From a bacterium (GTDB taxonomy: Bacteria > Campylobacterota > Campylobacteria > Campylobacterales > Sulfurimonadaceae): 34,626 nt of DNA. The DNA lies in the NCBI GenBank assembly GCA_018822665.1, contig JAHJJX010000025.1, positions 1-34,626 on the forward strand. Reading direction: 5' to 3'. Position 1 is the stretch's first letter. Each line of letters opens with the position of its first letter. The notes under the pieces were generated by a model. It made no database searches. It saw only the letters and a program-made list of their open reading frames with translations, and was not told the DNA's origin. The position numbers and the translations under genes were made by a program. Positions 1 through 34,573 of this stretch are shown here, one piece after another.

Positions 1-145
1 CATAATATCTTATTATCCATTATTTAATTTTATGAAAGATTATAACCGCTTTTGTATTAAAGTACTTTTTATGATTTGAAAATTTGCAAAATATAGGAAA
101 ATATGAAATACTAATAATATATTTATACTTTAATATAAAACTATT

Positions 146-559
146 ATGTGATTGAACTGACTGACAAATTATGAAGAGAAAGAAGTTGACTTAGCTTTTT
201 CAGATGTAGAAATCAAAATGGCTAAAAAATGGATTCAAGAACTTTACGAAGTTTTTGAGCCTGAGTTTGAATTAAACATAGATGAACTTATTGAAAAAAT
301 TAAAAAAATTAAAACAGATACTTTTTTACCCTTCATGCTTAAGGCTATAATTTTAATGAAGAAAAATTGAGCAAAAAACTTAACTGAATTAGATAAATTA
401 TATAGTAGTATTGTTAAAAAAGAATCGTCAGTAAAGTTTTTAAAAAAAGATTTTGAAGAGTTAAATCTACACGAAGAATGGGAAAAACAACAAGTACAAG
501 ACTTTGAAGAAGCAAAATTATTATCTGAGCAAATAAGAAATGGTAAAATAGACAAATAA
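146..559 (+). CDS. Unknown 137-residue protein, readable only with UGA as glycine
   Basis: Seen: from ATG 146 to TAA 557 the frame has three in-frame TGA codons (codons 2 and 5, and one in a Lys-Asn-TGA-Ala context about two thirds of the way in the first half) and no other stop. Read with TGA as Gly the protein starts MGLNGLTNYEEKEVDLAF and continues as a lysine- and glutamate-rich, probably all-helical protein ending NGKIDK. An in-frame TAA lies shortly upstream, so ATG 146 is the natural start. Under the standard code only a truncated piece would be made. No family is recognised. A DUF3024 gene with a strong Shine-Dalgarno follows 28 bases later and uses ordinary TGG and GGN codons. Inference: same foreign origin as the frame at 2489-4069. 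The length and amino-acid pattern support a real gene; function is unknown. Confidence 0.6.
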
Positions 560-587
560 TTTTTAAGATTTAAAGGAGGACTTCCTA

Positions 588-932
588 ATGCCAATCCCAC
601 CAATCCAAAAACAACTAGTTGAAAAACTAATGCAAAACTATTGCGATAAAAAAGCCCCTAAAGAGTTGAATGAGAGTATTCAGCTCTTTTATTATATCAG
701 AGGTAACAACATCACTTTAGTTGAATCTCGTCCGTCATGGCACGATAAAACAGAGTGGATAGATATGAAAATCGCTCAGATACGATTTGAAAATGAAAGT
801 AAAACTTTTACTCTTTATTGTCCTGATAGAAATGAAAAATGGCATTTATATGATTTTATTGAAGCATCTACAGAACTTGAAAATTTATTAAAAGAAATTG
901 ATAGAGATCCTACGGGCATATTTTGGGGCTAA
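588..932 (+). CDS. DUF3024 family protein
   Basis: 114 residues. The C-terminal two thirds matches the DUF3024 pattern as I know it: LFYYIRGNNITLVESRP near residue 33, then a Trp, then a W-x-D-M-K-I-A-Q-I-R-F block, then CPDRNEKWHLYD and the end ErDPTGIFWG. The function of the family is not known; it occurs as short stand-alone cytoplasmic proteins. The start is fixed by a near-perfect Shine-Dalgarno, aaaggagg, at about 570-577. It uses TGG for tryptophan five times and has no in-frame TGA, so it is a standard-code gene although the frame just upstream needs TGA as sense. A hairpin with a T-run overlaps the stop codon. Confidence 0.85.
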   Translation: MPIPPIQKQLVEKLMQNYCDKKAPKELNESIQLFYYIRGNNITLVESRPSWHDKTEWIDMKIAQIRFENESKTFTLYCPDRNEKWHLYDFIEASTELENLLKEIDRDPTGIFWG

Positions 933-951
933 ATTGTTAGCTCTTTTTTTT
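926..951 (+). terminator. Intrinsic terminator after the DUF3024 gene
   Basis: A 7-base-pair stem (GGGCTAA / TTAGCTC, one G-T pair) with a 4-base loop is followed by a run of eight T. The 5' arm contains the TAA stop codon of the DUF3024 gene. Confidence 0.65.
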
Positions 952-965
952 GAAGTGTTTTTTAG

Positions 966-988
966 AATCCAAGCCTAAGTCTTGGATT
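966..988. repeat. Perfect 8-bp hairpin
   Basis: AATCCAAG, a 7-base loop, then CTTGGATT. It lies between convergent genes. Neither strand shows a following T-run, so a terminator role is only possible. Confidence 0.4.
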
Positions 989-1020
989 ACTAGTATAGAA
1001 CTAAGGTATCTATCTTAATA

Positions 1021-1254
1021 TTAAACATAAAAAGCTATCTTAAAATCTAGATATTTACTTTCTAGCATATCTGCAACAGCTTGATTTTTAAATGTATGTA
1101 GATGAGAAAGTTCCCCTTTTCTTAATGTGCCTTCTTGTGTTGCTTGAAATTTATTTTTCATTAAACTGCTTGCATCAAATAAATTAATGTTGAAATGTTC
1201 TTCATTAATATTTTCTTCATATATTTTTCCATTAGCGGGAATTTTAATATTCAT
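1021..1254 (-). CDS. Unknown 77-residue protein downstream of the XRE regulator
   Basis: No family recognised. The protein starts MNIKIPANGKIYEENINEEH and ends KYLDFKIAFYV, with no signal peptide or membrane segment. On the minus strand AAGGAT lies about 7 bases before the ATG, which supports translation. It is on the same strand as the XRE regulator at 1328-1579, 73 bases downstream of it, so the two are likely co-transcribed. Such a small partner beside an XRE protein could be part of a regulator or toxin-antitoxin-like pair, but nothing in the sequence proves that. Confidence 0.55.
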   Translation of the reverse strand: MNIKIPANGKIYEENINEEHFNINLFDASSLMKNKFQATQEGTLRKGELSHLHTFKNQAVADMLESKYLDFKIAFYV

Positions 1255-1327
1255 ACTTATATCCTTTTTTGTAAATGATAGTTAATAATAATACATTACA
1301 ATAAAAATATGGCAAATTGACATGCTT

Positions 1328-1579
1328 TTATGACATTTTAAAAAACTCACAAACATCAACTTCCAAAACTTCAGCAATTTTCACTAAATGCTCAATATTA
1401 AAGTGCTTATTATTCAAACAAATCTCAGCCATAGAAATTGTTCCGACTGCTTTATGCCCTATAGCCATTGCAAGAGCTAATTGTGATACACCTTTTTCAT
1501 TTCTAATATCTTTTACTTTCTGCCCAATTTTTTTATAAATCTCAAGCATTTTTTCATCCGTAATGCTAGTTTCTTTCAT
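1328..1579 (-). CDS. XRE-family helix-turn-helix transcriptional regulator
   Basis: 83 residues. A single HTH_3/Cro-C1 domain covers about residues 13-75: IGQKVKDIRNEKGVSQLALAM, then a turn, then ISMAEICLNNKHFNIEHLVK, IAEVLEVDVCEFF. This is the classic layout of small phage-type repressors and restriction-modification controller proteins. It probably acts as a dimer on the palindromes in the divergent promoter region (1592-1608 and 1637-1654). A further half-site ATAGTTA sits over its own start codon (1578-1584), which suggests autoregulation. Divergent neighbour: the small gene at 1684. Family assignment is firm; the target genes are inferred. Confidence 0.85.
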   Translation of the reverse strand: MKETSITDEKMLEIYKKIGQKVKDIRNEKGVSQLALAMAIGHKAVGTISMAEICLNNKHFNIEHLVKIAEVLEVDVCEFFKMS

Positions 1580-1591
1580 AGTTACCTACCC

Positions 1592-1608
1592 ATAGTTAAG
1601 CTAACTAT
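1592..1608. promoter_or_regulatory. Candidate XRE operator 1
   Basis: Perfect inverted repeat ATAGTTA-AGC-TAACTAT in the intergenic region between the XRE gene and the divergent small gene. It shares the heptamer TAACTAT with operator 2. Confidence 0.6.
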
Positions 1609-1636
1609 AAGTGTAGGAAGTATAGAATTTTTCATC

Positions 1637-1654
1637 AACTAACTATAGTTAGTT
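1637..1654. promoter_or_regulatory. Candidate XRE operator 2
   Basis: Perfect 18-base palindrome AACTAACTATAGTTAGTT, 28 bases beyond operator 1 and 29 bases before the ATG at 1684. It contains the same TAACTAT/ATAGTTA half-sites. Confidence 0.65.
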
Positions 1655-1683
1655 ATTTGGAGATAAAAAGTTGAGGAAGGCAG

Positions 1684-1881
1684 ATGAGTATTGAATCACA
1701 ACAAAAAAAGTATATGCAAGACCATTATAAATGGACAGATAAAGTTCAAGAGATTGAACAAAAAATTAGAGAAGCAAATGCAGAAGGTAGAGATGGAAAA
1801 GCCATTTATGAATACCAATTAAGTGAAGCAAGAAGTCAAGCCAGACTTTGTTATGAACTAGCTACAGATAGAGGATTTTAA
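1684..1881 (+). CDS. Unknown 65-residue charged protein
   Basis: Starts MSIESQQKKYMQDHYKWTD and continues with a Lys/Glu/Gln-rich, probably helical body (KVQEIEQKIREANAEGRDGK) ending ATDRGF. No signal peptide, no membrane segment, no family recognised. AGGAAGG lies just upstream of the ATG, a good ribosome binding site. It is the first gene after the XRE operator region and probably heads a short operon of small genes reaching 2408. TGG is used for Trp and GGN for Gly, so it is a standard-code gene. Confidence 0.6.
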   Translation: MSIESQQKKYMQDHYKWTDKVQEIEQKIREANAEGRDGKAIYEYQLSEARSQARLCYELATDRGF

Positions 1882-1882
1882 T

Positions 1883-1991
1883 ATGGCAACAATAAGGTAA
1901 AGAATCAGATAAAGAAAAAGGTAAACCAAAAACAAAAAGTGGAGAACATAGAAAGCAAAAGCAGGGTGGAAATAAATCTAAAAAATGGTGA
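1883..1991 (+). pseudogene. Small basic protein gene with an apparent +1 frameshift
   Basis: The ATG at 1883 begins MATI and then meets TAA at 1898. Skipping one base after codon 4 gives an open, strongly basic tail: GKESDKEKGKPKTKSG, then EHRKQKQGGNKSKKW and TGA at 1989. The tail looks like a real lysine-rich, disordered nucleic-acid-binding type of peptide. The break could be a one-base insertion, a sequencing error in the AATAAGG stretch, or programmed frameshifting. The gene starts two bases after the preceding stop, so it would be translationally coupled. Function unknown. Confidence 0.4.
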
Positions 1992-2024
1992 TTTGATAAG
2001 AAAATACAACACAAGGAAATATAG

Positions 2025-2183
2025 ATGAAAAAGGTTTTAAAATTTAGTGTAATAAAAATTGCAGATAGTAATTATCAAGGTAGTGCATGTTCTCAATGTT
2101 CTTGTAAACAGTTTGTAATCTCAAGCGACCCTCAATTTTGTGATAATTGTGGACATTCTCGGTCTTCTCATTATGGAAAGTAA
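2025..2183 (+). CDS. Small zinc-ribbon-like protein, 52 residues
   Basis: ATG 2025 preceded by ACAAGGAAAT, a fair ribosome binding site. Translation starts MKKVLKFSVIKIADSN and contains a SACSQCSCK knuckle and, about 15 residues later, an FCDNCGHSRSSHYGK tail. The two CxxC pairs are spaced as in zinc ribbons, so zinc binding is likely. No specific family recognised. It ends 6 bases before the next gene, which supports an operon of small genes. Confidence 0.55.
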   Translation: MKKVLKFSVIKIADSNYQGSACSQCSCKQFVISSDPQFCDNCGHSRSSHYGK

Positions 2184-2189
2184 TTAAAA

Positions 2190-2408
2190 ATGAAAAAAAT
2201 ATTTTTATTACTATTTTTATTATTTTCTACAATTTCTTTTGCTACAGACAACAACCAAACTAAAGAAATGTCTAAAGAAGATGTTGATAAATGGTTTGAA
2301 GAATATGCAGAATTAGAAGAAAAAACTAAAAAGCTTAAAAAACTCAATAATACTCTTGACGAATTAAATGGTATGTTAGAAGTAAAAAAAATAGAAGCTA
2401 CAAAATAG
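2190..2408 (+). CDS. Small exported protein with helical tail
   Basis: 72 residues. Residues 1-19 form a clear Sec signal peptide (MKKIFLLLFLLFSTISFA) with cleavage expected after SFA. The mature part is about 53 residues, highly charged and probably a single coiled coil (EEYAELEEKTKKLKKLNNTL). A periplasmic location is expected. No family recognised. It is the last gene of the small-gene operon starting at 1684, and a weak hairpin overlaps its stop. Confidence 0.55.
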   Translation: MKKIFLLLFLLFSTISFATDNNQTKEMSKEDVDKWFEEYAELEEKTKKLKKLNNTLDELNGMLEVKKIEATK

Positions 2409-2420
2409 CCTCTATTTTTT
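2402..2420 (+). terminator. Weak AT-rich terminator-like hairpin
   Basis: AAAATAG-CCT-CTATTTT followed by two more T, overlapping the TAG stop of the preceding gene. The stem is AT-rich, so activity is uncertain. Confidence 0.35.
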
Positions 2421-2488
2421 GCACCACATCCAAAAATATGATAAAATCTATATAACTCCTAAAATCTTACAAAATTAATAATCAATTT

Positions 2489-4069
2489 ATGTCAATAGAA
2501 TGAATGTCATCTCATATCAATGAATGACCTAGTTTAAAAGATACACCTGAATATCAAAAGCAACTCAATGAAAGGGTTGAAATAATTAAACAAGATGAAA
2601 AAAACTATAAGCATTTAGTAAAAGTAAATGATGTTCTAAATGTGCTTGATGTGACGGATGAGCAAGAAGATATGTTAAGACCAAGACTTGAAACACTAGA
2701 CAATGAAACTCTCAAAAGTTTAACAACAAAAACTAGATGAGAGATTTTTGCAATTTTAAAAAATCAAGTGCAAGATGTTCATAACGAAGAAGTAGAACAA
2801 ACTGACTCAAAAATCTCAAAACTAAAAGCAATCTTCACACCTGAACTTTTAAAGCAACATTCTAAAATAAAAGAGCAATTTGAAGAATTAGACACTACAG
2901 CAGATAAAGAAAAGATTTTTAGAAACATTATCAATATTTTAAAAAATGAACCTTGAGAATTAAAGTCTATCATAGATTCTTTTTGATGAGCTAACCCAAA
3001 TAATCCTCAATATCTTGAATTTAAAAACACTTTAATAGGTTTAGATAGCAGTTTTGAAAACTACTTTAATGATTTAGAGAAACTAGAGGCTTGAGTGAGC
3101 TTGAATTCAAATGAAATCATAGAATGAATTGAAAAAAAATCTTGATGAATGTTAGATATAGATTTGAAAGCTAATGTTTCAAAATTGCATCTTCCTGAAA
3201 GTAATTATAGTTTTGATAAAAAGTTAGATAAACAAGCACTAAGTGAACTTGAAAATACAAAAGATAATAAGGTAAATGATATTAAGAGAAGCTACGCTTC
3301 TCTTAAAGGATTGTACAATCCTTTTGCTAGTTTAAGCAGTAAAATAGAGCAGGGTTTATCAGAGCAAAACTCAAAAGAAAGTTCTCATGATTTTCTGAAT
3401 AATTTTCCAAATGATATTTTTAGTGAGATGGATGATGTTTATGAAACTATGAATATTGACTCAAATATTCAAATAACTAAATCAGATATGAACTCTTTAT
3501 CTGATAGTAAAACTATAGAAGAATTTAGAGCAAAAAAAGAAAATATAGAAAATAAATTTCAAAAAATAGTAACTCAAATTAATTCACAAAAAGCGTGAGT
3601 TGAAACAGAGTATAAATCAAATCTTGAAAAATTAGCAACAAGAGATTCTGAGGCAAAAGAAAAGCAAGTAGAAGTTTTGAAGTTTTTTAAGAACAGTGGG
3701 TTTGATTTATTTCCCAAAGAGCTAACGGACAAAGTTATAAATATGCTTCAAAGTGGAATGTTAATCGTACCATGACTTGATTTGAATATTCAAAACATAG
3801 ATTTAGAAAATTGACACTTTTGAGAGAGTTCAGCATTTTTAGATAAAGATTCTTGAATTAACACATTAGCAAAAAGAAATCTAGTGAAATTTATGAATAA
3901 AATGATTAGTTGAGATACTACTGAACCTCTATGAGTAGAAGCGATTGTAAACTGAATCTCAGTAGCTAATCCAGCTAAGCTTAAAAATGATTTTTTAAAA
4001 GCTGATATAGTTGGTGGTCTTGGATGGAAGTATAGTAAAATTCTTGAAAATTTAAAAAAAGTTTCTTAA
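2489..4069 (+). CDS. Unknown 526-residue protein, readable only with UGA as glycine
   Basis: Seen: from ATG 2489 to TAA 4067 the frame contains 18 in-frame TGA codons and no internal TAA or TAG. Several TGA sit in glycine-like places: tandem TGA TGA before Ala-Asn-Pro and before Met-Leu-Asp, and VP-TGA-LDLN near the end. The frame also uses TGG (GGLGWKYSK) and about eight GGN codons. Reading TGA as Trp would give two WW pairs and an improbable Trp content. UGA as Gly is the documented code of Absconditabacteria and Gracilibacteria (table 25). The protein is Glu/Lys/Asn-rich, mostly helical, without signal peptide or membrane segments, and starts MSIEGMSSHINEG. No domain recognised. In a UGA-stop host only short internal pieces (2768-2956, 3149-3598) would be open. 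Inference: recent transfer from, or assembly join with, a code-25 genome or its phage. Confidence 0.75.
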
Positions 4070-4127
4070 TGTTTAAAGTAAGGCTGTTTTCACACTTAGT
4101 ATACTATATGCGAAATCTATTTTTTAA

Positions 4128-4146
4128 GGGACTTTCACGGGACTTT
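4128..4146. repeat. GGGACTTT tandem direct repeat
   Basis: GGGACTTT occurs at 4128-4135 and 4139-4146, 11 bases apart, just past the end of the UGA-recoded frame. Helically phased short repeats like this can be integrase arm-type sites, but no integrase is present in the window. Confidence 0.4.
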
Positions 4147-4267
4147 AAAGAAAAAAAGGTTATAATAATGCCCTCAAAAGCCCTATACATTGGGATTTAA
4201 AATTTTTCTTACAAAAGAGTGTCGTATTCTCTGTAGATGCTCAAGATGTACCCTTTGTGTTTGAATG

Positions 4268-4293
4268 TCGGCATGTGGAAATAGAGATGCCGA
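4268..4293. repeat. Hairpin containing the dispersed 11-mer
   Basis: TCGGCAT and ATGCCGA form a 7-bp perfect stem with a 12-base loop. The left arm includes the start of GGCATGTGGAA (4270-4280). Confidence 0.5.
4270..4280 (+). repeat. Dispersed 11-mer GGCATGTGGAA, copy 1
   Basis: Exact match on the plus strand, intergenic, inside the hairpin at 4268-4293. Confidence 0.7.
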
Positions 4294-4319
4294 TAATTTT
4301 GATATGTAATTTTACACTA

Positions 4320-4362
4320 AATCACTTATGATAGCATTAGCAAAAAGTAACATAATGTAAAC
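4320..4362 (+). repeat. Direct repeat, left copy
   Basis: Begins AATCACTTATGATAGCATTA and ends CATAATGTAAAC. The copy at 5168-5213 matches 26 of the first 27 bases and then CATAATGTAAA after a small indel. The two copies flank the outer-membrane protein gene. Confidence 0.7.
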
Positions 4363-4387
4363 TAATGTTTTAATTATAAAATATTAG

Positions 4388-4416
4388 TTTACATTAAATT
4401 ATATACTAGATAGAAT
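4388..4416 (+). promoter_or_regulatory. Sigma-70-type promoter of the barrel protein gene
   Basis: TTTACA (4388-4393), 17-base spacer, TAGAAT (4411-4416). The -10 box is also the left arm of an inverted repeat TAGAAT-N7-ATTCTA, a possible operator. Confidence 0.5.
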
Positions 4417-4444
4417 AGGATAAATTCTATAGGGAGAAAATAAA

Positions 4445-5050
4445 TTGAAAAAAATAATTACAGCAGCTTTAGCATCCGCAACTCTACTCTCAACAGCATC
4501 TTTTGCTGATATCTATCTTGGTGTGGATGCTATAAGCGGGGATAGTATGTCTTATACGATGAAAGCCAATACCGGAGGCAGTGCGACATGGGATGCGACA
4601 GAAACCGGTTATCGTATTAAACTAGGAGCAGGTGAACTTGATGATTGGACATGGCAGTTGTATTATAGTGCGATCGAATCCAATAAATACTATTGGTCAA
4701 GTAAAAGTTTAACGGAGTTTGGATATGACCTGCGACCGGGTTGGGAAATTGGAAATAATTTTTATTTTACTCTCCCTTTTGGTATCAATTATGGAATAAC
4801 TGAAACTGACTCAACGGTAGACAGCAGTTCCTGGGCGAGAGTTGGTTTTAAAGTGGGAGCAAGCATTAGTTATGTTGTGGCAGATCAAATTGAATTTTTA
4901 GCCGGATACGATTATAAAGGTGTAGTGTGGCAGGATATTGTGGTGGGCTCTACTACCTTTAGCACAACGGGCAGCGGTTCAGGAATGTATTTTGGTGTGA
5001 ACTTATGGTTTGGAAATGCAAATCAAAAAGCAATCGGAGCAGTAAAATAA
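4445..5050 (+). CDS. Outer-membrane beta-barrel-like protein
   Basis: 201 residues from a TTG start with AGGGAG 8 bases upstream; the TTG places the signal peptide MKKIITAALASATLLSTASFA at the very N-terminus (cleavage after residue 21). The mature protein alternates polar and aromatic residues in the way of short transmembrane beta strands (YRIKLGAGELDDWTWQLYYS, FYFTLPFGINYGI, VGFKVGASISYVVADQIEFL, MYFGVNLWFG), which suggests an 8-strand barrel of the OmpA/OmpW size class. It does not end in the usual terminal aromatic residue; after NLWFG it continues with NANQKAIGAVK. No specific family recognised. It stands alone, with its own promoter and a strong terminator, between two direct repeats. 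Confidence 0.7.
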   Translation: MKKIITAALASATLLSTASFADIYLGVDAISGDSMSYTMKANTGGSATWDATETGYRIKLGAGELDDWTWQLYYSAIESNKYYWSSKSLTEFGYDLRPGWEIGNNFYFTLPFGINYGITETDSTVDSSSWARVGFKVGASISYVVADQIEFLAGYDYKGVVWQDIVVGSTTFSTTGSGSGMYFGVNLWFGNANQKAIGAVK

Positions 5051-5108
5051 AATAATGTGCATTAAGCACTGGCGAGTGTTTTTCATCAAATTGCCTAGTG
5101 CTACACTT

Positions 5109-5137
5109 TAAACAGGTTTTTAAAACCTGTTTACCTC
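5109..5137 (+). terminator. Strong hairpin terminator
   Basis: TAAACAGGTTTT-T-AAAACCTGTTTA, 12 paired bases around a single central T, then ACCTCTTT. It follows the barrel protein gene by about 60 bases. The U tract inside the arms makes it potentially bidirectional. Confidence 0.6.
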
Positions 5138-5167
5138 TTTAAAACAACTCTCAATTCTTTTACGCTC

Positions 5168-5213
5168 AATCACTTATGATATCATTAGCAAAAAATAATG
5201 CATAATGTAAAAC
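5168..5213 (+). repeat. Direct repeat, right copy
   Basis: Near-copy of 4320-4362, ending 17 bases before the ABC-F start codon, so one copy sits upstream of the barrel gene and one upstream of ABC-F. Confidence 0.7.
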
Positions 5214-5229
5214 AATACAAAAGAGTCTC

Positions 5230-7062
5230 ATGATACAACTAGTAAATATTTCTAAAAGCTTCTCAAGCCAAGAGCTTTTTAGCAATCTCAATTTTAAATT
5301 AAACGGCGGAAATAAAATCGGTCTGGTCGGTAGAAACGGGAGTGGGAAATCTACTCTGTTTAAACTTATTTTAAGGGAAGAAGCCCCTGATAGCGGTGAA
5401 ATTATCATCCCTAAAGGGTATAAAATAGGAGCACTCAAGCAGCATCTTGAGTTTAGCCAAAACACACTCAGAGAAGAGGCGGCATTAGCATTGGAAGAGG
5501 AGATGAAGTACGACCTTTACAGAGTGGAGAAAATTCTTTTTGGTTTGGGTTTTACTCAAGAGGACTTGGAAAAAGACCCTCTTTCGTTTTCGGGAGGTTA
5601 TCAGATTCGTATTAACCTTGCAAAACTTTTAGTGACTGAACCAAATCTGCTTCTATTGGATGAGCCTACGAACTACCTTGACATTATCTCGATGCGTTGG
5701 TTAAAAACCTTTTTGAGAGCCTTTGAGGGTGAAATTATTTTGATAACCCACGACAGGGATTTTATGGACAGCGTCACCACTCACACAATGGGAATTATCC
5801 GTCGTAATTTAAGTCTGATAGCAGGTGATACGCATAAGTTTTATGAACAGCTCAAGGCAAATGACGAGTTGTATGAGAAACAAAAATTAAGTCAGGACAA
5901 AAAAGTAAAAGAACTTGAAGATTTCATCGCCCGAAATAAAGCGCGTGCTTCTACGGCGGCGCTTGCACAGTCTAAAGTCAAACAGCTGGAGAAAATGGAG
6001 CTGTTGGATGATTTAGGATTTGACGCAACTTTGAAGTTTGATTTTAACTTCAAAGAAACTCCTGCAAAAGTTTTGCTGGATGTAAAAGATTTGAGTTTTG
6101 GGTACAGCCCTGAGAAGATTCTTTTTAAAAATATCTCTTTTGCACTTGAAAAAGGGGAATGTCTTGGAATTATCGGAAAAAACGGCAAAGGAAAGTCAAC
6201 GCTTTTAAATACTATTGCGGGAGAATTAAAGCCTCTTAGAGGCAGGGTTGATTTTCATACAACGACATCTTATGCGCATTTTGGGCAGACAAATATCAGT
6301 CGGTTGAATCCTAAAAATTCAGTAATTGATGAGATTTATGTTGGAAATCCAACCCTCTCTGCTGCAAGCGTTAGAGGAATTTGCGGGGCAATGATGTTTA
6401 GCGGAGACAGCGCTGAGAAAAAAGTATCTCTGCTCTCTGGGGGAGAAAAAAGCCGTGTAATGCTGGGGCAGATTTTGGCAAGAAGCGTGAACCTTCTTTT
6501 TCTTGATGAACCGACAAATCACTTAGATATGGATTCCATTGAAGCTTTGAGTGAAGCGATTAAAAACTTTAAAGGTTCGGTTATTATTGTTACCCACTCC
6601 GAAGAGTTATTGCGCCGTGTTTGCGATAGACTTATAATTTTTTCAAAAGAGGGTGCCGAGTATTTTGATGGCGGATATGACCTTTTCTTAGAAAAAATCG
6701 GCTGGGAAGAAGAGGAGCAGGTTGAAAAAGTAAAAACCGCTCCAAAAGTGAACAAGCAGGAAAATAAAAAGCTTCGGGCAGCCCTTGTGCAAGAGAGAAG
6801 CAAACTGATAGCTCCCTTAAAAAAAGAGATAGAAAAACTGGAGAAGTTTATTATGCAGACAGAGGATGCCCTTGAACTGTATCACAAAGATTTGATTGTT
6901 GCTTCAAACAGCGGCGACAATAGCAAAATCATGGAACTCTCACAGCGTATCTCTAAAAATGAAAGTGAAGTTGAAGAAAAATTTGAGCTTTTAGAAACAG
7001 CACAAAATGCTTTGGATGAACTTATGGCGGAGTTTGATGTAAAACTTGCAGAGTTGGAATGA
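5230..7062 (+). CDS. ABC-F family ATPase (ribosome-associated type)
   Basis: 610 residues, two ABC domains in one chain and no membrane segment, which defines the ABC-F class (EttA/Uup/YheS relatives that act on the ribosome rather than in transport). Domain 1: Walker A GRNGSGKST at 34-42, signature FSGGYQIRINLAKLL, Walker B LLLLDEPTNYLD. A charged linker with ELEDFIARNKARASTAALAQ lies between domains. Domain 2: Walker A GKNGKGKST near 316, signature LLSGGEKSRVMLGQ, Walker B LLFLDEPTNHLD near 422. The last 100 residues form a charged coiled coil, as in Uup and YheS. Both catalytic Glu are present. It stands alone and ends in TGA, showing that UGA is a stop in this genome. Which ABC-F subfamily cannot be decided by eye. 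Confidence 0.93.
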   Translation: MIQLVNISKSFSSQELFSNLNFKLNGGNKIGLVGRNGSGKSTLFKLILREEAPDSGEIIIPKGYKIGALKQHLEFSQNTLREEAALALEEEMKYDLYRVEKILFGLGFTQEDLEKDPLSFSGGYQIRINLAKLLVTEPNLLLLDEPTNYLDIISMRWLKTFLRAFEGEIILITHDRDFMDSVTTHTMGIIRRNLSLIAGDTHKFYEQLKANDELYEKQKLSQDKKVKELEDFIARNKARASTAALAQSKVKQLEKMELLDDLGFDATLKFDFNFKETPAKVLLDVKDLSFGYSPEKILFKNISFALEKGECLGIIGKNGKGKSTLLNTIAGELKPLRGRVDFHTTTSYAHFGQTNISRLNPKNSVIDEIYVGNPTLSAASVRGICGAMMFSGDSAEKKVSLLSGGEKSRVMLGQILARSVNLLFLDEPTNHLDMDSIEALSEAIKNFKGSVIIVTHSEELLRRVCDRLIIFSKEGAEYFDGGYDLFLEKIGWEEEEQVEKVKTAPKVNKQENKKLRAALVQERSKLIAPLKKEIEKLEKFIMQTEDALELYHKDLIVASNSGDNSKIMELSQRISKNESEVEEKFELLETAQNALDELMAEFDVKLAELE

Positions 7063-7162
7063 CACATTAGAACAGTTGTTAATAAATCAGAGGTAGTTTC
7101 AAAAGGGATTTTTTAAGTACATCTTCTTATGTTATTATTAGAAAAAAAGAAAAGAGATTATT

Positions 7163-9763
7163 ATGAGTGAAGTAAGAACAATTTATTTAAAAGAGTATAA
7201 AGCGCCGGAGTTTCAAGTTGTAAAATGCAACTTGGAATTTGAACTTTTTGAAGAATATGCGCTAGTAAGCAATGTTATGAAGATAAAACAAATGGACAAG
7301 CAACATAAAAATATCAGTCTGGATACACAGGAACTGGAGCTTGTGGAGTTATGGCTTAATGATTTAAAACTAAGCGATACCCGTTATGTGCTCGAGGAAG
7401 AGAGCCTCAAGATTTTGAATGTCCCAAGTGAATTCAGTTTAAAAATTATTAACAAAATATATCCTCAAAACAACACCGAACTTGAAGGGCTCTATAAATC
7501 CGGAACGATTTTTTGTACGCAAAATGAACCGGAGGGTTTTAGAAAAATCACACCATATTTAGACCGTCCGGATGTGATGAGTGTTTTTACGACTACGATA
7601 AGTGCAGATAAAAAAAAGTATCCGATTCTCCTTAGCAACGGAAACAAAAGAGCGCTAAAAGAGTTAGAAGACGGCAGACACAGTGTAACTTGGGAAGACC
7701 CGCATCCAAAACCATCTTATCTTTTTGCCCTCGTTGCAGGAGATTTGGGAGTTGTAAGCGATACATTTACAACCGCAAGCGGCGAGCATGTGGATTTAAA
7801 TATATACTGCGACAAAGGAAATGAATCCAAATGTGCACATGCCATGAAATCTCTCAAAAAATCTATGATTTGGGATGAGCAAAAGTATGGCAGAGAGTAC
7901 GATTTGGAAGTTTACAACATCGTGGCGGTCGATAGTTTTAATATGGGAGCCATGGAAAACAAAGGTTTAAATATTTTTAACTCCCATTATGTTCTGGCAG
8001 ACAAAGACAGTGCGAGTGATGCAAACTTTATGGGGATTGAGAGTGTGATTGCGCATGAGTATTTTCATAACTGGACAGGAAACCGTATCACTTGTCGAGA
8101 TTGGTTTCAGCTTACTCTCAAAGAGGGGCTTACCGTCTTTCGTGACCAGTGTTTCTCAGCGGATTTAAACTCAGCGGAGGTTCAGCGCATAGAGAGTGTA
8201 AAAGCTCTCAGAGAAAGACAGTTTGTAGAAGATGCTTCCCCAACGACGCACCCGATTCAGCCGGATTCTTATATGGCTATCAACAATTTTTATACGGCAA
8301 CGGTATATGAAAAAGGTGCTGAGGTTATTCGAATGATTCATACTCTTTTGGGTGAAGAGTTGTACCGCAAAGCTACCGATTTGTATTTTGAGAGTTTTGA
8401 CGCTCAAGCTGTAACGACGGATGATTTTTTATGGGCGATGGGTGAGGCAAGCGGGCAGGATTTAACTCAGTTTACAAGATGGTATCATCAGTCGGGTACA
8501 CCAAAACTGGATGTAAAAGAGAGTTATGAGGAGGAGAGATATACATTAACCCTTACTCAAATAATTCCACATGCCATTGATGGAGGAGAGCAAAAGCCTT
8601 ACTATTTTGCGTTAAAAATGGCACTGCTAGATGAGAATGGCAGAGAGATGAAGCTTGCATGTGAATCTCAGCAGAGATTAAACGACGGAATTCTCATCGT
8701 ATCCAAAGAGAGTGAAGAGTTTATTTTTACGGGTTTAAAATCGAAGCCCGTGCTATCAATCAACCGTGATTTTTCGGCACCTGTTATCATTATACAAGAG
8801 CAAAGCAATTATCCGTTTTTAATGAAGCATGATTCAAACAGTTTTATACGGTATGAATCTGCACAATCTTTTGCAGTTGCAACTATCGAAGGAATGATGT
8901 CGGGTAAAAATATAGAAACAGATTTTGTTGAAGCCTATGGCTATATTTTAGACCTTGATATTGATTTATCTTTCAAAGCTCTCTTGTTGGAGTTTCCGAC
9001 AGTCTCAACACTTATGCAAAGACAGACCGAGGTCGATTTTGAACCTATTTATGAGGCAAAAGAAAAATTGGCAAAACATTTGGCGCTAAGGTATAAAGAT
9101 AAACTTTTAGAGATTTATCATACATTCCACATGCCAAAGTGCGATGATATAGACGCTCAAAGCATAGGCAAAAGAGCGATAAAAAACAGTTGTCTGAAAC
9201 TTCTTTGCTCCCTTGAGAGCGAAGATGTGATTCTGATGGCAAAAAAACAGTATGAAAATTCTCTGACCATGACAGATAGAATCGCGGCTCTTGATATTTT
9301 GGAAAATACACATGCCCAATTTGCCGAGGTGGCATTGGCTGACTTTTATGCAAGATATAAAGAAGATACTTTGGTTATGAATAAGTATTTCTCTATACTT
9401 GCAGCCTCGCACAGAGAGGGAACATTAGATAGGGTTATGGCACTTCAAAATGATGAAGTGTATGATGAAAAAGTTCCAAATCTTGTGCGCTCTCTTATTG
9501 GTGTTTTTGCAAGAAACTATAAACATTTTCATGCAAAAGACGGTTACGGTTATAAGTTTGTAGCAGACAAGATAATAGAGATAGATGCAATCAATGCACA
9601 GATGGCTTCAGGACTTGCAGGCGCATTTAAGATATATGAGCGCTTAAACCCAATCAATAAAAAATGTATGAAAAACGAATTAGAGCGTGTACTTTCTACA
9701 CACACCCTCTCAAAAAATGTCTATGAGATAATAAGCAAAATCTTAAAAATAAACCATAATTAG
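7163..9763 (+). CDS. pepN: Aminopeptidase N (M1 zinc metallopeptidase)
   Basis: 866 residues, close to the 870 of E. coli PepN and of the same subfamily (short N-terminal beta domain, thermolysin-like domain, long helical C-terminal domain). Substrate-binding GAMEN at 262-266; zinc motif HEYFH at 298-302 with the third ligand Glu at 321 in LKEGLTVF; the proton-donor Tyr is expected in the NNFYTATVYEKGAEV block. It removes N-terminal residues from peptides in the cytoplasm. No signal peptide. It is preceded by a 100-base spacer after ABC-F and followed by a terminator at 9781, so it is probably monocistronic. Two copies of the dispersed 11-mer lie inside it, in different reading frames. Confidence 0.96.
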   Translation: MSEVRTIYLKEYKAPEFQVVKCNLEFELFEEYALVSNVMKIKQMDKQHKNISLDTQELELVELWLNDLKLSDTRYVLEEESLKILNVPSEFSLKIINKIYPQNNTELEGLYKSGTIFCTQNEPEGFRKITPYLDRPDVMSVFTTTISADKKKYPILLSNGNKRALKELEDGRHSVTWEDPHPKPSYLFALVAGDLGVVSDTFTTASGEHVDLNIYCDKGNESKCAHAMKSLKKSMIWDEQKYGREYDLEVYNIVAVDSFNMGAMENKGLNIFNSHYVLADKDSASDANFMGIESVIAHEYFHNWTGNRITCRDWFQLTLKEGLTVFRDQCFSADLNSAEVQRIESVKALRERQFVEDASPTTHPIQPDSYMAINNFYTATVYEKGAEVIRMIHTLLGEELYRKATDLYFESFDAQAVTTDDFLWAMGEASGQDLTQFTRWYHQSGTPKLDVKESYEEERYTLTLTQIIPHAIDGGEQKPYYFALKMALLDENGREMKLACESQQRLNDGILIVSKESEEFIFTGLKSKPVLSINRDFSAPVIIIQEQSNYPFLMKHDSNSFIRYESAQSFAVATIEGMMSGKNIETDFVEAYGYILDLDIDLSFKALLLEFPTVSTLMQRQTEVDFEPIYEAKEKLAKHLALRYKDKLLEIYHTFHMPKCDDIDAQSIGKRAIKNSCLKLLCSLESEDVILMAKKQYENSLTMTDRIAALDILENTHAQFAEVALADFYARYKEDTLVMNKYFSILAASHREGTLDRVMALQNDEVYDEKVPNLVRSLIGVFARNYKHFHAKDGYGYKFVADKIIEIDAINAQMASGLAGAFKIYERLNPINKKCMKNELERVLSTHTLSKNVYEIISKILKINHN
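8565..8575 (-). repeat. Dispersed 11-mer, copy 2
   Basis: TTCCACATGCC on the plus strand, inside pepN, encoding part of Ile-Pro-His-Ala. Confidence 0.7.
9125..9135 (-). repeat. Dispersed 11-mer, copy 3
   Basis: TTCCACATGCC inside pepN, here read as Phe-His-Met-Pro, a different frame from copy 2. Confidence 0.7.
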
Positions 9764-9918: not shown

Positions 9919-11388
9919 ATGGCAAGATTAATTGTTTTAGGCGGTGGTGTTTCAGGACATACTGCAGCGACATTCGCGGCAAAGTGGCTTGGTTCATCGC
10001 ACGAAGTTGTAGTTGTGACTCCAAATTCAAAATGGAACTGGATTCCATCAAATATTTGGGTCGGTGTTGGCCAAATGACAAAAGAAGAGGTTACTTTCGA
10101 TTTGGCACCTGTATATAAAAAAGCAGGCATTACGTATAAGCAGGCAAAAGCGCTTGGCATTCATCCTGAAGGGAATGAATCAAGTGACAAACCTTATGTG
10201 GTTATTGAATCTACTGAAGCCGGTTCAGCAGGCAAAGTAGAAAATATAGAGTACGATTACCTTATTAACGCAACTGGACCAAAACTTAACTTTGGTGCAA
10301 CTCCGGGTCTTGGCGAAGGTTCAAACTTGGGTGAGTATACAGTTTCCGTTTGTACGGCAGACCATGCAGACCATGCCGCACATGAATTGCAAAAATGCAT
10401 TGAAAAAATGAAAAAAGGTGAGCGTCAAAAGTTCTTAATCGGAACGGGACACGGCATGTGTACATGTCAAGGTGCCGCATTTGAGTATATTTTCAATATT
10501 GAACACGAATTAAATAAAGCTGGCGTTCGTGACATGGCAGACATCAAGTGGATTTCAAATGAATCTTTTTTGGGTGACTTTGGTGTTGGCGGACTTCACA
10601 TGAAAACTATGGGTTATGCTGTTAGCTCTAAAATATTTGCCGAATCACTTTTTACTGAAAGAGGGGTGGAGTGGATTATCGGTGCGCATGTTAACAAAGT
10701 TGAAAAAGGCAAAGCACACTATGAACTTCTTGATGGAACTATGGGAGTAGAAGAGTTTGATTTTTCTATGTTGATTCCTCCTTTTGCCGGTGTTGGACTT
10801 AAAGCTATAAATAAAGCAGGTGAAGATATCACTGCAACTGTTTTTGCTCCAAACGGATTTATGAAAGTAGATGCGAATTATGCGGCAGGTGCTTATGAAA
10901 ACTGGAAAGCGAGCGACTGGCCTTCAACATACCAAAATCCAACCTACGGAAATATGTTTGCATGTGGAATCGCATTTGCACCGCCGCATCCAATTTCCAA
11001 ACCAATGAGTTCACCAAACGGAACTCCTATCAATCCAACTCCTCCTCGTACGGGTATGCCTTCGGGTATTATGGGAAAAACAGTTGCACATAGTGTTTGT
11101 GACAGAATTCTCAAAGGTGAGAACGCTCCACTTCATGAAGCTTCTATGGCAAATATGGGCGCTGCCTGTGTTGCTTCTGCGGGTAAAGGTTTATTTAACG
11201 GAACTGCGGCTGCAATGACAATTTATCCGGTTGTGCCTGACTTTGAGAAATATCCGGGAACAGGCCGTGATACAGATTACACTTTTGGCGAAATCGGTCT
11301 TGCAGGTCACTGGATTAAACATATTTTACATCACTTGTTTATTTGGAAAGCTAAGCTTAAAGCTGGCTGGACACTTATCCCAGAATAA
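9919..11388 (+). CDS. Sulfide:quinone oxidoreductase-like flavoprotein
   Basis: 489 residues from ATG 9919. An ATG nine codons earlier (9892) is in frame, but GAGGA sits 9 bases before 9919 and the FAD motif should be at the N-terminus (GGGVSGHTAA at 8-17). The protein has the SQR-type Cys set: Cys145 in VCTADHADHA, Cys181/Cys183 in GMCTCQGAAFEY, and Cys349 in MFACGIAFAPPHPIS, which match the redox-active Cys positions of SQR. The known role is oxidation of sulfide to sulfur or polysulfide with electrons passed to quinone, on the periplasmic face of the membrane. The C-terminus (HWIKHILHHLFIWKAKLKAGW) looks like an amphipathic membrane-binding helix. At about 490 residues it is longer than common SQR types, so exact type and substrate are uncertain. 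A small membrane protein gene follows after 28 bases. Confidence 0.82.
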   Translation: MARLIVLGGGVSGHTAATFAAKWLGSSHEVVVVTPNSKWNWIPSNIWVGVGQMTKEEVTFDLAPVYKKAGITYKQAKALGIHPEGNESSDKPYVVIESTEAGSAGKVENIEYDYLINATGPKLNFGATPGLGEGSNLGEYTVSVCTADHADHAAHELQKCIEKMKKGERQKFLIGTGHGMCTCQGAAFEYIFNIEHELNKAGVRDMADIKWISNESFLGDFGVGGLHMKTMGYAVSSKIFAESLFTERGVEWIIGAHVNKVEKGKAHYELLDGTMGVEEFDFSMLIPPFAGVGLKAINKAGEDITATVFAPNGFMKVDANYAAGAYENWKASDWPSTYQNPTYGNMFACGIAFAPPHPISKPMSSPNGTPINPTPPRTGMPSGIMGKTVAHSVCDRILKGENAPLHEASMANMGAACVASAGKGLFNGTAAAMTIYPVVPDFEKYPGTGRDTDYTFGEIGLAGHWIKHILHHLFIWKAKLKAGWTLIPE

Positions 11389-34392: not shown

Positions 34393-34467
34393 TGGCTCCG
34401 AATACTGGATTCGAACCAGTGACCAAGTGATTAACAGTCACCTACTCTACCGCTGAGCTAATTCGGA
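34393..34467 (-). tRNA. tRNA-Asn (anticodon GTT), second copy in the transcript
   Basis: 75 bases including the encoded CCA. Acceptor stem TCCGAAT / ATTCGGA, discriminator G, D arm TAGCTCAGCGGTAGAGTA, anticodon loop CTGTTAA with anticodon GTT, and T arm GGTTCGAATCC. All four stems pair. It is identical to the copy at 34499-34573 and lies 31 bases downstream of it. Confidence 0.97.
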
Positions 34468-34498
34468 ATATGATAAAAAGTTGTAAGTTTCAAATAAA

Positions 34499-34573
34499 TG
34501 GCTCCGAATACTGGATTCGAACCAGTGACCAAGTGATTAACAGTCACCTACTCTACCGCTGAGCTAATTCGGA
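34499..34573 (-). tRNA. tRNA-Asn (anticodon GTT), first copy in the transcript
   Basis: Same 75-base sequence as the copy at 34393-34467, including the encoded CCA and anticodon GTT. It is nearest to the promoter at 34591-34619, so both copies should be made from one precursor. Confidence 0.97.

Follow-up and report, generated by a model that had tools for sequence, protein, structure and literature searches.

The reading frame at positions 2489–4069 of the forward strand, here called P0001, is, as judged from its translation and its homologues, a real gene whose protein, with UGA read as glycine, has been under selection. It sits in a genome of the Campylobacterota on an integrative, mobilisable-type element, whose apparent ends share a core, with an integrase at one of them. 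On balance, it is probable that this element alternates between standard-code Campylobacterota and bacteria living on them that read UGA as glycine (Gracilibacteria or Absconditabacteria); both the second host and the shuttling are what we infer from the two kinds of gene that the element carries. The reading of UGA as glycine corresponds to NCBI translation table 25 and is known from Absconditabacteria and Gracilibacteria. The window, meaning the whole stretch of DNA that was analysed, is the entire contig C17 (34,626 bases) of a 2.5-Mb genome, G000, which is assembled in 44 contigs and is 99.99% complete and 0.44% contaminated.

A Reading Frame with In-Frame UGA Codons

Under table 25, P0001 is translated through 526 codons to a TAA stop, with 18 in-frame TGA codons and no internal TAA or TAG, as the original prediction had it; the standard reading, in which UGA is a stop, ends after four residues. 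Could such a frame arise by chance? Base composition alone leads to an expectation of about 11 TGA codons (10.6), so the signal lies in the missing TAA and TAG and not in a surplus of TGA. The chance of 526 codons without either of these stops is about 2e-18 from base composition alone, and the homologues retain the reading frame and many of the TGA positions, which bears out the earlier view that the frame is not a product of random decay. On the opposite strand, the longest frames started by ATG, GTG, or TTG reach 141 codons, even with table 25. TGG is used separately, as had also been noted, and occurs once in P0001. No Shine-Dalgarno-like site precedes the gene.

Family searches assigned no function to any of the UGA=Gly proteins. 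For P0001, no family was found in Pfam, NCBIfam, or PADLOC, the best match of a PDB profile search had an E-value of 0.2, and two PHROGs lacking an assigned function matched with E-values of 0.006 and 0.03. The AlphaFold2 model of P0001 is poor (mean pLDDT 63.6, pTM 0.33) and is helical or coil except for a few residues; a Foldseek search of this model against viral models returned nothing below an E-value of 0.2.

Distribution of the P0001 Family

Relatives of P0001 are found in nine carriers: the genome of the window (G000), G091, G130, G132, G162, G170, Sulfuricurvum sp. PD_MW2, an Aliarcobacter sp. (G183), and G327. Profile matches occur in six of 135 genomes of the same genus and in five of 397 genomes sampled from the phylum, namely G000, G132, G285 (Sulfuricurvum), G327, which was new, and G410, which was weak and is not counted. 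Matches in genome_contigs come from three loci, in Sulfuricurvum sp. PD_MW2, Aliarcobacter sp., and a Campylobacterales metagenome-assembled genome from Lac Pavin. In counting carriers, the Lac Pavin record was treated as G091, and G285 and G182 as the Sulfuricurvum record, on the basis of equal translations or codon counts. The matches in G410 (E-value 2e-4, without TGA and within a 1144-aa frame), G145, G073 (5e-4), and G146 (2e-4) were left out. G063 (locus L121) has two further element genes, b and c, with no relative of P0001, and stands outside the nine.

Identity among the homologues and fragments is 27–60%. The copies in G000, G130, Sulfuricurvum, and Aliarcobacter are full length, that of G327 is shortened at the C terminus, that of G091 breaks off shortly before its end, and fragments are present in G170, G162, and G132; a broken or partial copy is thus present in five of the nine carriers. 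The six longest copies have 9–26 TGA codons and no TAA or TAG, and neither stop is found internally in the five full-length or nearly full-length copies or in G327; the homologues of Sulfuricurvum (locus L032), Aliarcobacter (L033), and two genomes of the same genus have 13–26 TGA. The G170 fragment lies in a single-contig genome of 2.6 Mb. The G327 copy, with nine TGA codons, is the most distant (27–43% identity over the matched parts) and lies inside a 428-kb contig close to dnaA/dnaN. Its flanks are present in relatives, and its boundary is blurred by a multicopy repeat at the left edge, where no exact insertion is claimed.

Is the family also present in bacteria that read UGA as glycine? 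The search of Absconditabacteria and Gracilibacteria proposed with the original prediction was run indirectly, by scanning genome_contigs with a few short peptide patterns that were not targeted to those phyla. It yielded homologues from Campylobacterota only and no copy from a recoded phylum. Scans of viral_contigs with a few short peptide patterns found no relative, and tblastn gave no match for P0001 against phages and plasmids or for genes b and c against plasmids.

The N termini of the family (residues 1–60 of P0001 and their counterparts) fall into two types, one in G000 and G130 and the other in G091 and Aliarcobacter; Sulfuricurvum is closer to the second. The two types may point to module exchange.

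Glycine as the Residue Encoded by UGA

Which amino acid does UGA encode in these genes? A codon alignment was made of five copies with 42–60% identity, the four of full length and that of G091, and 41 of its columns contain TGA. In these columns, GGN makes up 14 of the 94 codons other than TGA, compared with 37 of 2469 in the remaining columns (Fisher odds ratio 11.5, p = 1e-9), and TGG makes up none of the 94. The assignment of UGA to glycine in the P0001 family is supported by this comparison, and the preference for glycine over tryptophan in the original prediction holds. It is highly improbable that UGA stands for another residue, such as Trp, Cys, or Sec. Reassignment of UGA to Trp is also described from bacteria (PMC8629427), but no TGA-facing codon of P0001 relatives encodes Trp, 14 encode glycine, and TGG has its own use. 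Selenocysteine does not suit the 18 UGA codons of P0001, with no tRNA(UCA) found.

The ratio dN/dS, calculated under table 25, is below 1 in 14 of 15 pairs, that is, in all 14 that gave a value. Among the five long copies of P0001 it is 0.20–0.45, with rough values where dS is above 1 and near saturation, and the closest pair of the family, G130 and the G170 fragment, has a value of 0.10. These ratios imply that the frame has been selected as a UGA=Gly protein. Among closely similar copies of gene c (about 95.7% DNA identity), L112 and L121 have 10 synonymous and 6 nonsynonymous codon differences, a nonsynonymous deficit against neutral expectation with p = 0.00005–0.0016 depending on transition bias. 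The counts are 6 and 5 for L112 and L120 (p = 0.004–0.03) and 6 and 3 for L120 and L121.

Organisation of the Element

The part of the element in the window spans positions 1–4243, with the contig edge as its left limit, and is recognised by its base composition, by modules that it shares with other loci, and by the core at its right end. The GC comparison suggested with the original prediction separates this part, at 27–29%, from the next 7 kb, at 35–42%. The first gene is a second UGA=Gly gene, P0002 (146–559, forward strand; 137 aa, three TGA codons), which the original prediction did not list. Its relative is gene b on contig C24 of G091, in the N-terminal part (33% identity over 95 aa); gene b has GGN at the third TGA of P0002. 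P0002 is followed by a standard-code DUF3024 accessory gene with a Shine-Dalgarno site (588–932, forward; Pfam PF11225, 5.5e-34), a small standard-code open reading frame (1021–1254, reverse), and a Pfam-identified HTH_3 regulator (1328–1579, reverse), around which positions 1336–1659 share 85% DNA identity with the HTH gene of the G091 element. Two further small standard-code frames from the list of open reading frames, the second Cys-rich, lie at 1684–1881 and 2025–2183 on the forward strand. The last gene before P0001 (2190–2408, forward) encodes a small protein whose start resembles a signal peptide and which has coiled-coil character, both judged by eye; comparison of loci places similar genes of G091, G130, and Aliarcobacter immediately 5' of the respective UGA=Gly gene. 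In the six frames between P0002 and P0001, glycine is encoded by 17 GGN codons and no TGA.

Downstream of P0001, two GGGACTTT repeats near the element end (4128–4146, forward) are probable integrase arm sites, and a 24-bp core at 4220–4243 is the probable attachment site. The core is identical to the first 24 bases of a phosphomannomutase gene on another contig of the same genome, C14, and has a 25-bp match to the phosphomannomutase gene of G130; similarity of the window to stretches of G004 and G068 also ends close to 4220–4243. The first gene beyond the element (4445–5050, forward, TTG start) encodes, according to a weak Pfam match, an outer-membrane protein of the beta-barrel type, and the neighbourhood consists of standard-code Campylobacterota genes, as was originally reported. 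The mobile element, which several Campylobacterota have in common, was not part of the original prediction.

Contig C14 carries a MobC-like gene (3.2e-4, which narrowly misses the Pfam cut-off), gene d, gene c, and a tyrosine integrase (7934–9040; PF00589, 4.4e-23) that adjoins the phosphomannomutase gene. Gene d has eight TGA codons in its stop-free frame, seven of them in the part used for counting, and gene c is interrupted by a Mutator-family transposase. GTCCC repeats are present at the integrase end. The GC content is 24–28% up to about position 9,000, with 34% in the kilobase of the transposase, and 36–40% beyond. The contig edge holds only the start of a relaxase-like frame. Most simply, window positions 1–4243 and C14 positions 1–9236 would be the two ends of one element whose middle is unassembled, a union that we infer from their sequences. 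The G000 element has four UGA=Gly genes in all. The same integrase–phosphomannomutase junction is found in G130, where the integrase frame has only 161 codons.

Related elements have similar contents. The Aliarcobacter locus L033, of 17.5 kb, carries a J-domain gene, a homologue of P0001 (26 TGA), a XerC/D-type recombinase, genes b, c, and d (13, 2, and 4 TGA, respectively), and a relaxase (PF03432, 4.8e-10). In G091, genes c and b come after an integrase, on a contig of 116 kb that also has chromosomal genes; this element stretch has 79% DNA identity to Aliarcobacter over 1.2 kb, and the contig ends in a recombinase gene that is 83% identical over 201 bp to the Aliarcobacter recombinase gene. 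Gene order is partly kept between these two elements over several genes. The modules common to the loci are the HTH gene (85% DNA identity between G000 and G091), the J-domain gene (G091, G130, and Aliarcobacter), and the small signal-peptide-like gene (G000, G091, G130, and Aliarcobacter). Relatives of the J-domain gene that the three sister elements carry are present on 2587 plasmids, of which 2181 are conjugative. Among the element proteins put through family searches, which are a subset, no phage structural gene was found; an ORF6N/Rha-type gene is among the matches. Some copies of genes b and c are broken: an in-frame TAA interrupts gene b of G091, and another copy of gene b, which is partial, has one TAG and one TAA.

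At a contig end of G132, two further TGA-rich genes (L038: 68–1273, reverse, and 1431–1859, forward) lie close to a P0001-family remnant of 29 residues; one of the two genes encodes a 401-aa protein with a pilin N terminus, a FecR domain, and 15 TGA codons.

Could the assembly itself have produced this arrangement? Assembly chimera or contamination during binning, with fragments of Gracilibacteria or Absconditabacteria joined to Campylobacterota contigs, is hardly credible as an explanation. The three named records are metagenome assemblies, and P0001 lies near a contig end in DNA whose GC is unlike that of the chromosome. However, UGA=Gly and standard-code genes are interspersed within 4 kb, separate assemblies show the same neighbours, and the ends of the element match at a common core. 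Moreover, there are nine carriers, including the fragment in the single-contig genome and the gene inside the long contig of G327.

Two Classes of Genes on One Element

On the G000 and Aliarcobacter elements, glycine is encoded in the UGA=Gly genes by 75 TGA and 23 GGN codons and in the standard-code genes by 0 TGA and 166 GGN codons, a contrast that is partly built in, as the classes are defined by in-frame TGA. These counts come from nine UGA=Gly pieces and 26 standard-code frames, a subset of the open reading frames. A Shine-Dalgarno-like tetramer at about −20 to −5 precedes 22 of 29 standard-code genes and none of 13 UGA=Gly genes, the latter set excluding genes c and d of G000.

Another candidate idea was that the standard-code genes are bilingual and avoid TGA stops. 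This was rejected, because TGA stops are found in five of 29 element genes compared with four of 20 host frames of the window. Because they use TGA stops, the standard-code genes of the element are not tuned for a UGA=Gly host.

A string, ACTCCTAAA, lies 32–34 bp upstream of the start codon in three UGA=Gly genes of two families (window position 2455; L035, 2442; L038, 1306, reverse). Three of its five occurrences in ten scanned sequences precede UGA=Gly genes, and it might be a common promoter or boundary signal.

Have the two classes diverged together? Between the G091 and Aliarcobacter elements, dS of the standard-code genes is 1.13 for the J-domain gene, 0.61 for the HTH gene, and 0.69 for the small secreted-type gene, and dS of the UGA=Gly genes is 0.93 for the P0001 homologue, 0.83 for gene c, and 0.66 for gene b. 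The corresponding dN/dS values are 0.08–0.41, except for the small secreted-type gene (0.75). The similarity of dS between the classes is seen in this one pair of elements only. Between G000 and Aliarcobacter, dS is 1.42–2.45 for three standard-code genes and 0.76–1.32 for P0001 and for parts of genes c and d, values that are near saturation. In comparisons of G130 with G091 or Aliarcobacter, dS is 0.76–0.79 for the J-domain gene and 1.26–1.36 for the P0001 homologue. The unequal dS of these other pairs indicates that modules have been exchanged as well.

Decoding of UGA in the Campylobacterota Host

Can the present host translate these genes? In G000, 42 tRNA matches were found, and ARAGORN gave 33 distinct sequences; the glycine anticodons are GCC and UCC and the tryptophan anticodon is CCA. 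No anticodon UCA is among the tRNAs found in G000, a set that is incomplete, as tRNA-Ile(GAU) and tRNA-Ala(UGC) are likewise missing. Release factor RF2 scores above the curated cut-off in seven of the nine carriers, including G000; of the remaining two genomes, one is 84% complete and the other is in 480 contigs. With RF2 present and no tRNA(UCA) in the incomplete tRNA set, the present host is not a table-25 organism. Translation of P0001 in a Campylobacterota cell should stop after four residues, as predicted from the sequence.

Alternatively, Campylobacterota cells might themselves decode UGA as glycine with a suppressor tRNA, either encoded in the unseen middle of the element or missed, so that the genes would be expressed as in code-switching phages. 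Purifying selection on the frames, recent copies included, would fit such decoding, as would the unassembled middle of the G000 element and the incompleteness of its tRNA set. Against it are the lack of a UCA anticodon in G000 and a search of eight carriers with a tRNA(UCA) pattern, in which none of 13 matches, from six of them, lies within a tRNA. No tRNA was found at loose thresholds on the loci L026, L032, L033, and L112. RF2 in most carriers and the missing Shine-Dalgarno-like sites of the UGA=Gly genes also speak against in-host decoding, which is quite unlikely.

An Element with Two Hosts?

Selection on the UGA=Gly frames requires a cell that reads UGA as glycine. The standard-code genes, which have no internal TGA, mostly have Shine-Dalgarno-like sites, and in some cases end in TGA, require a standard-code cell, as does a core that lies in a Campylobacterota gene. 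Since the UGA=Gly families are repeatedly found together with element genes of the same kinds, both sets travel together, at least over the time that separates the G091 and Aliarcobacter elements. These points are the grounds for the alternation of hosts proposed above, which is the most straightforward account of them. In a Campylobacterota host, the integrase, mobilisation, and regulatory genes would be read and the UGA=Gly genes would be silent, ending at their first UGA; in a UGA=Gly host, the UGA=Gly genes would be readable too. The genetic code alone would separate the two gene sets.

Literature on the presumed partners offers some context. Campylobacterales and Gracilibacteria were found together in eight of 10 groundwater samples (PMC8406219), and Vampirococcus has ComEC and type IV pili, with which it probably imports host DNA (PMC8080830). 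The Gracilibacteria described in PMC11452946 have no clear host link in that account, which favours no particular host.

Does the element need to enter recoded bacteria at all? In a rival scheme, transfer is one-way: elements of Campylobacterota repeatedly acquire DNA from attached UGA=Gly bacteria, the acquired genes are unreadable, decaying passengers, and the element is never in recoded bacteria. The UGA=Gly genes seem not to be under selective maintenance in Campylobacterota, given the broken copies in five of nine carriers; this breakage fits one-way transfer and a two-host shuttle alike. The stops in copies of gene b, the transposase within gene c of G000, and the other TGA-rich genes at the G132 contig end, such as the pilin/FecR-type gene, can be read as signs of such passengers, and the unequal dS of the classes in most element pairs allows separate arrival. 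However, random passengers should vary between elements, and in G000, G091, and Aliarcobacter the same UGA=Gly families accompany element genes of the same kinds. Furthermore, dS of the UGA=Gly genes between G091 and Aliarcobacter is like that of their standard-code neighbours. One-way transfer is a serious possibility, and a less likely one than alternation between hosts.

A more specific version of the two-host idea is that the UGA=Gly genes are code-locked cargo for a recoded epibiont, harmless as well as silent in Campylobacterota and readable only once the DNA of the host has been taken up by a predator or parasite with the UGA=Gly code. Their proteins might then act for the element, in its establishment or in control of the epibiont, or for the host, as a concealed defence, and the genetic code would serve as a switch that distinguishes prey from predator. 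This proposal is speculative and, in our estimation, rather improbable.

Comparison with Known Systems

Phages and prophages of Gracilibacteria and Absconditabacteria are described as either alternatively coded or readable in both codes, and those compatible with code 11 are targeted by both types of host (Liu et al. 2023, PMC10746230). Like the phages of that description, the element is mobile DNA tied to both UGA=Gly and standard-code bacteria. Unlike them, it is a single element, integrated in Campylobacterota, with one readable and one code-locked set of genes and with no phage structural gene seen among the proteins searched. The crAss-like and other code-switching phages use suppressor tRNAs to switch code within one host, according to the accounts in PMC9523058 and PMC10879173. 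The element resembles the phages so described in being mobile DNA with a code that differs from that of its host, but the four element loci that were scanned carry no tRNA.

Integrative mobilisable elements have a tyrosine integrase and a MobA/VirD2-like relaxase. The present elements are similar in having an integrase beside the core, a MobC-like gene in G000, a relaxase in Aliarcobacter, and a J-domain gene with relatives on conjugative plasmids. They differ in carrying conserved genes that the known host should fail to translate. Genes of Gracilibacteria and Absconditabacteria have a low GC content and encode Arg mostly by AGA, as described in PMC8629427. The UGA=Gly genes are like them in these features and in their code, but the P0001 family has so far been found in Campylobacterota only.

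Among the matches listed in a literature search, which largely lie outside subscription papers, there was no mobilisable element with gene sets in two codes and no report of UGA=Gly genes in Campylobacterota; the case for novelty of a two-code mobilisable element drawn from this negative is weak. The Vampirococcus paper discusses the speculation that reading UGA as glycine cuts the recoded bacteria off genetically from those around them (PMC8080830). If the alternation between hosts is true, a mobile element with conserved genes in both codes would supply direct evidence, from genomes, that DNA passes the recoding barrier. It would also indicate Campylobacterota as partners of recoded bacteria, most of which have no known host. 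The standard-code genes of the element provide a sequence handle that can be looked for in epibiont genomes, as a test of this partnership.

Additional Features of the Element Loci and the Window

Between genes b and c of the Aliarcobacter element is a stretch with a long AT-rich hairpin, whose core resembles a terminator (L033: 12563–12671; z −4.8, for the L033 copy, the only one folded). The stretch is conserved in five copies (L033, L112, L118, L120, and L121). An open reading frame on the same element (L033: 3717–4601) matches the PADLOC profile Aga_REase-PNTD1-PNTD2 with 3e-23 and is defence-like cargo.

In G130, the end of the UGA=Gly gene is about 190 bp from a tRNA-Asn (L035: 4286–4332). 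G170 (L036, which is G170 contig C1, 224000–243000; about position 10840 of the reverse complement) has the same right end as G130 and a tRNA-Asn remnant of about 46 bp. It seems that tRNA-Asn is a second attachment site, used by related elements. In the window, a direct repeat with 89% identity (4310–4361 and 5158–5211) flanks the outer-membrane protein gene, and two tandem tRNA-Asn genes lie at 34393–34573, near the right end of the contig.
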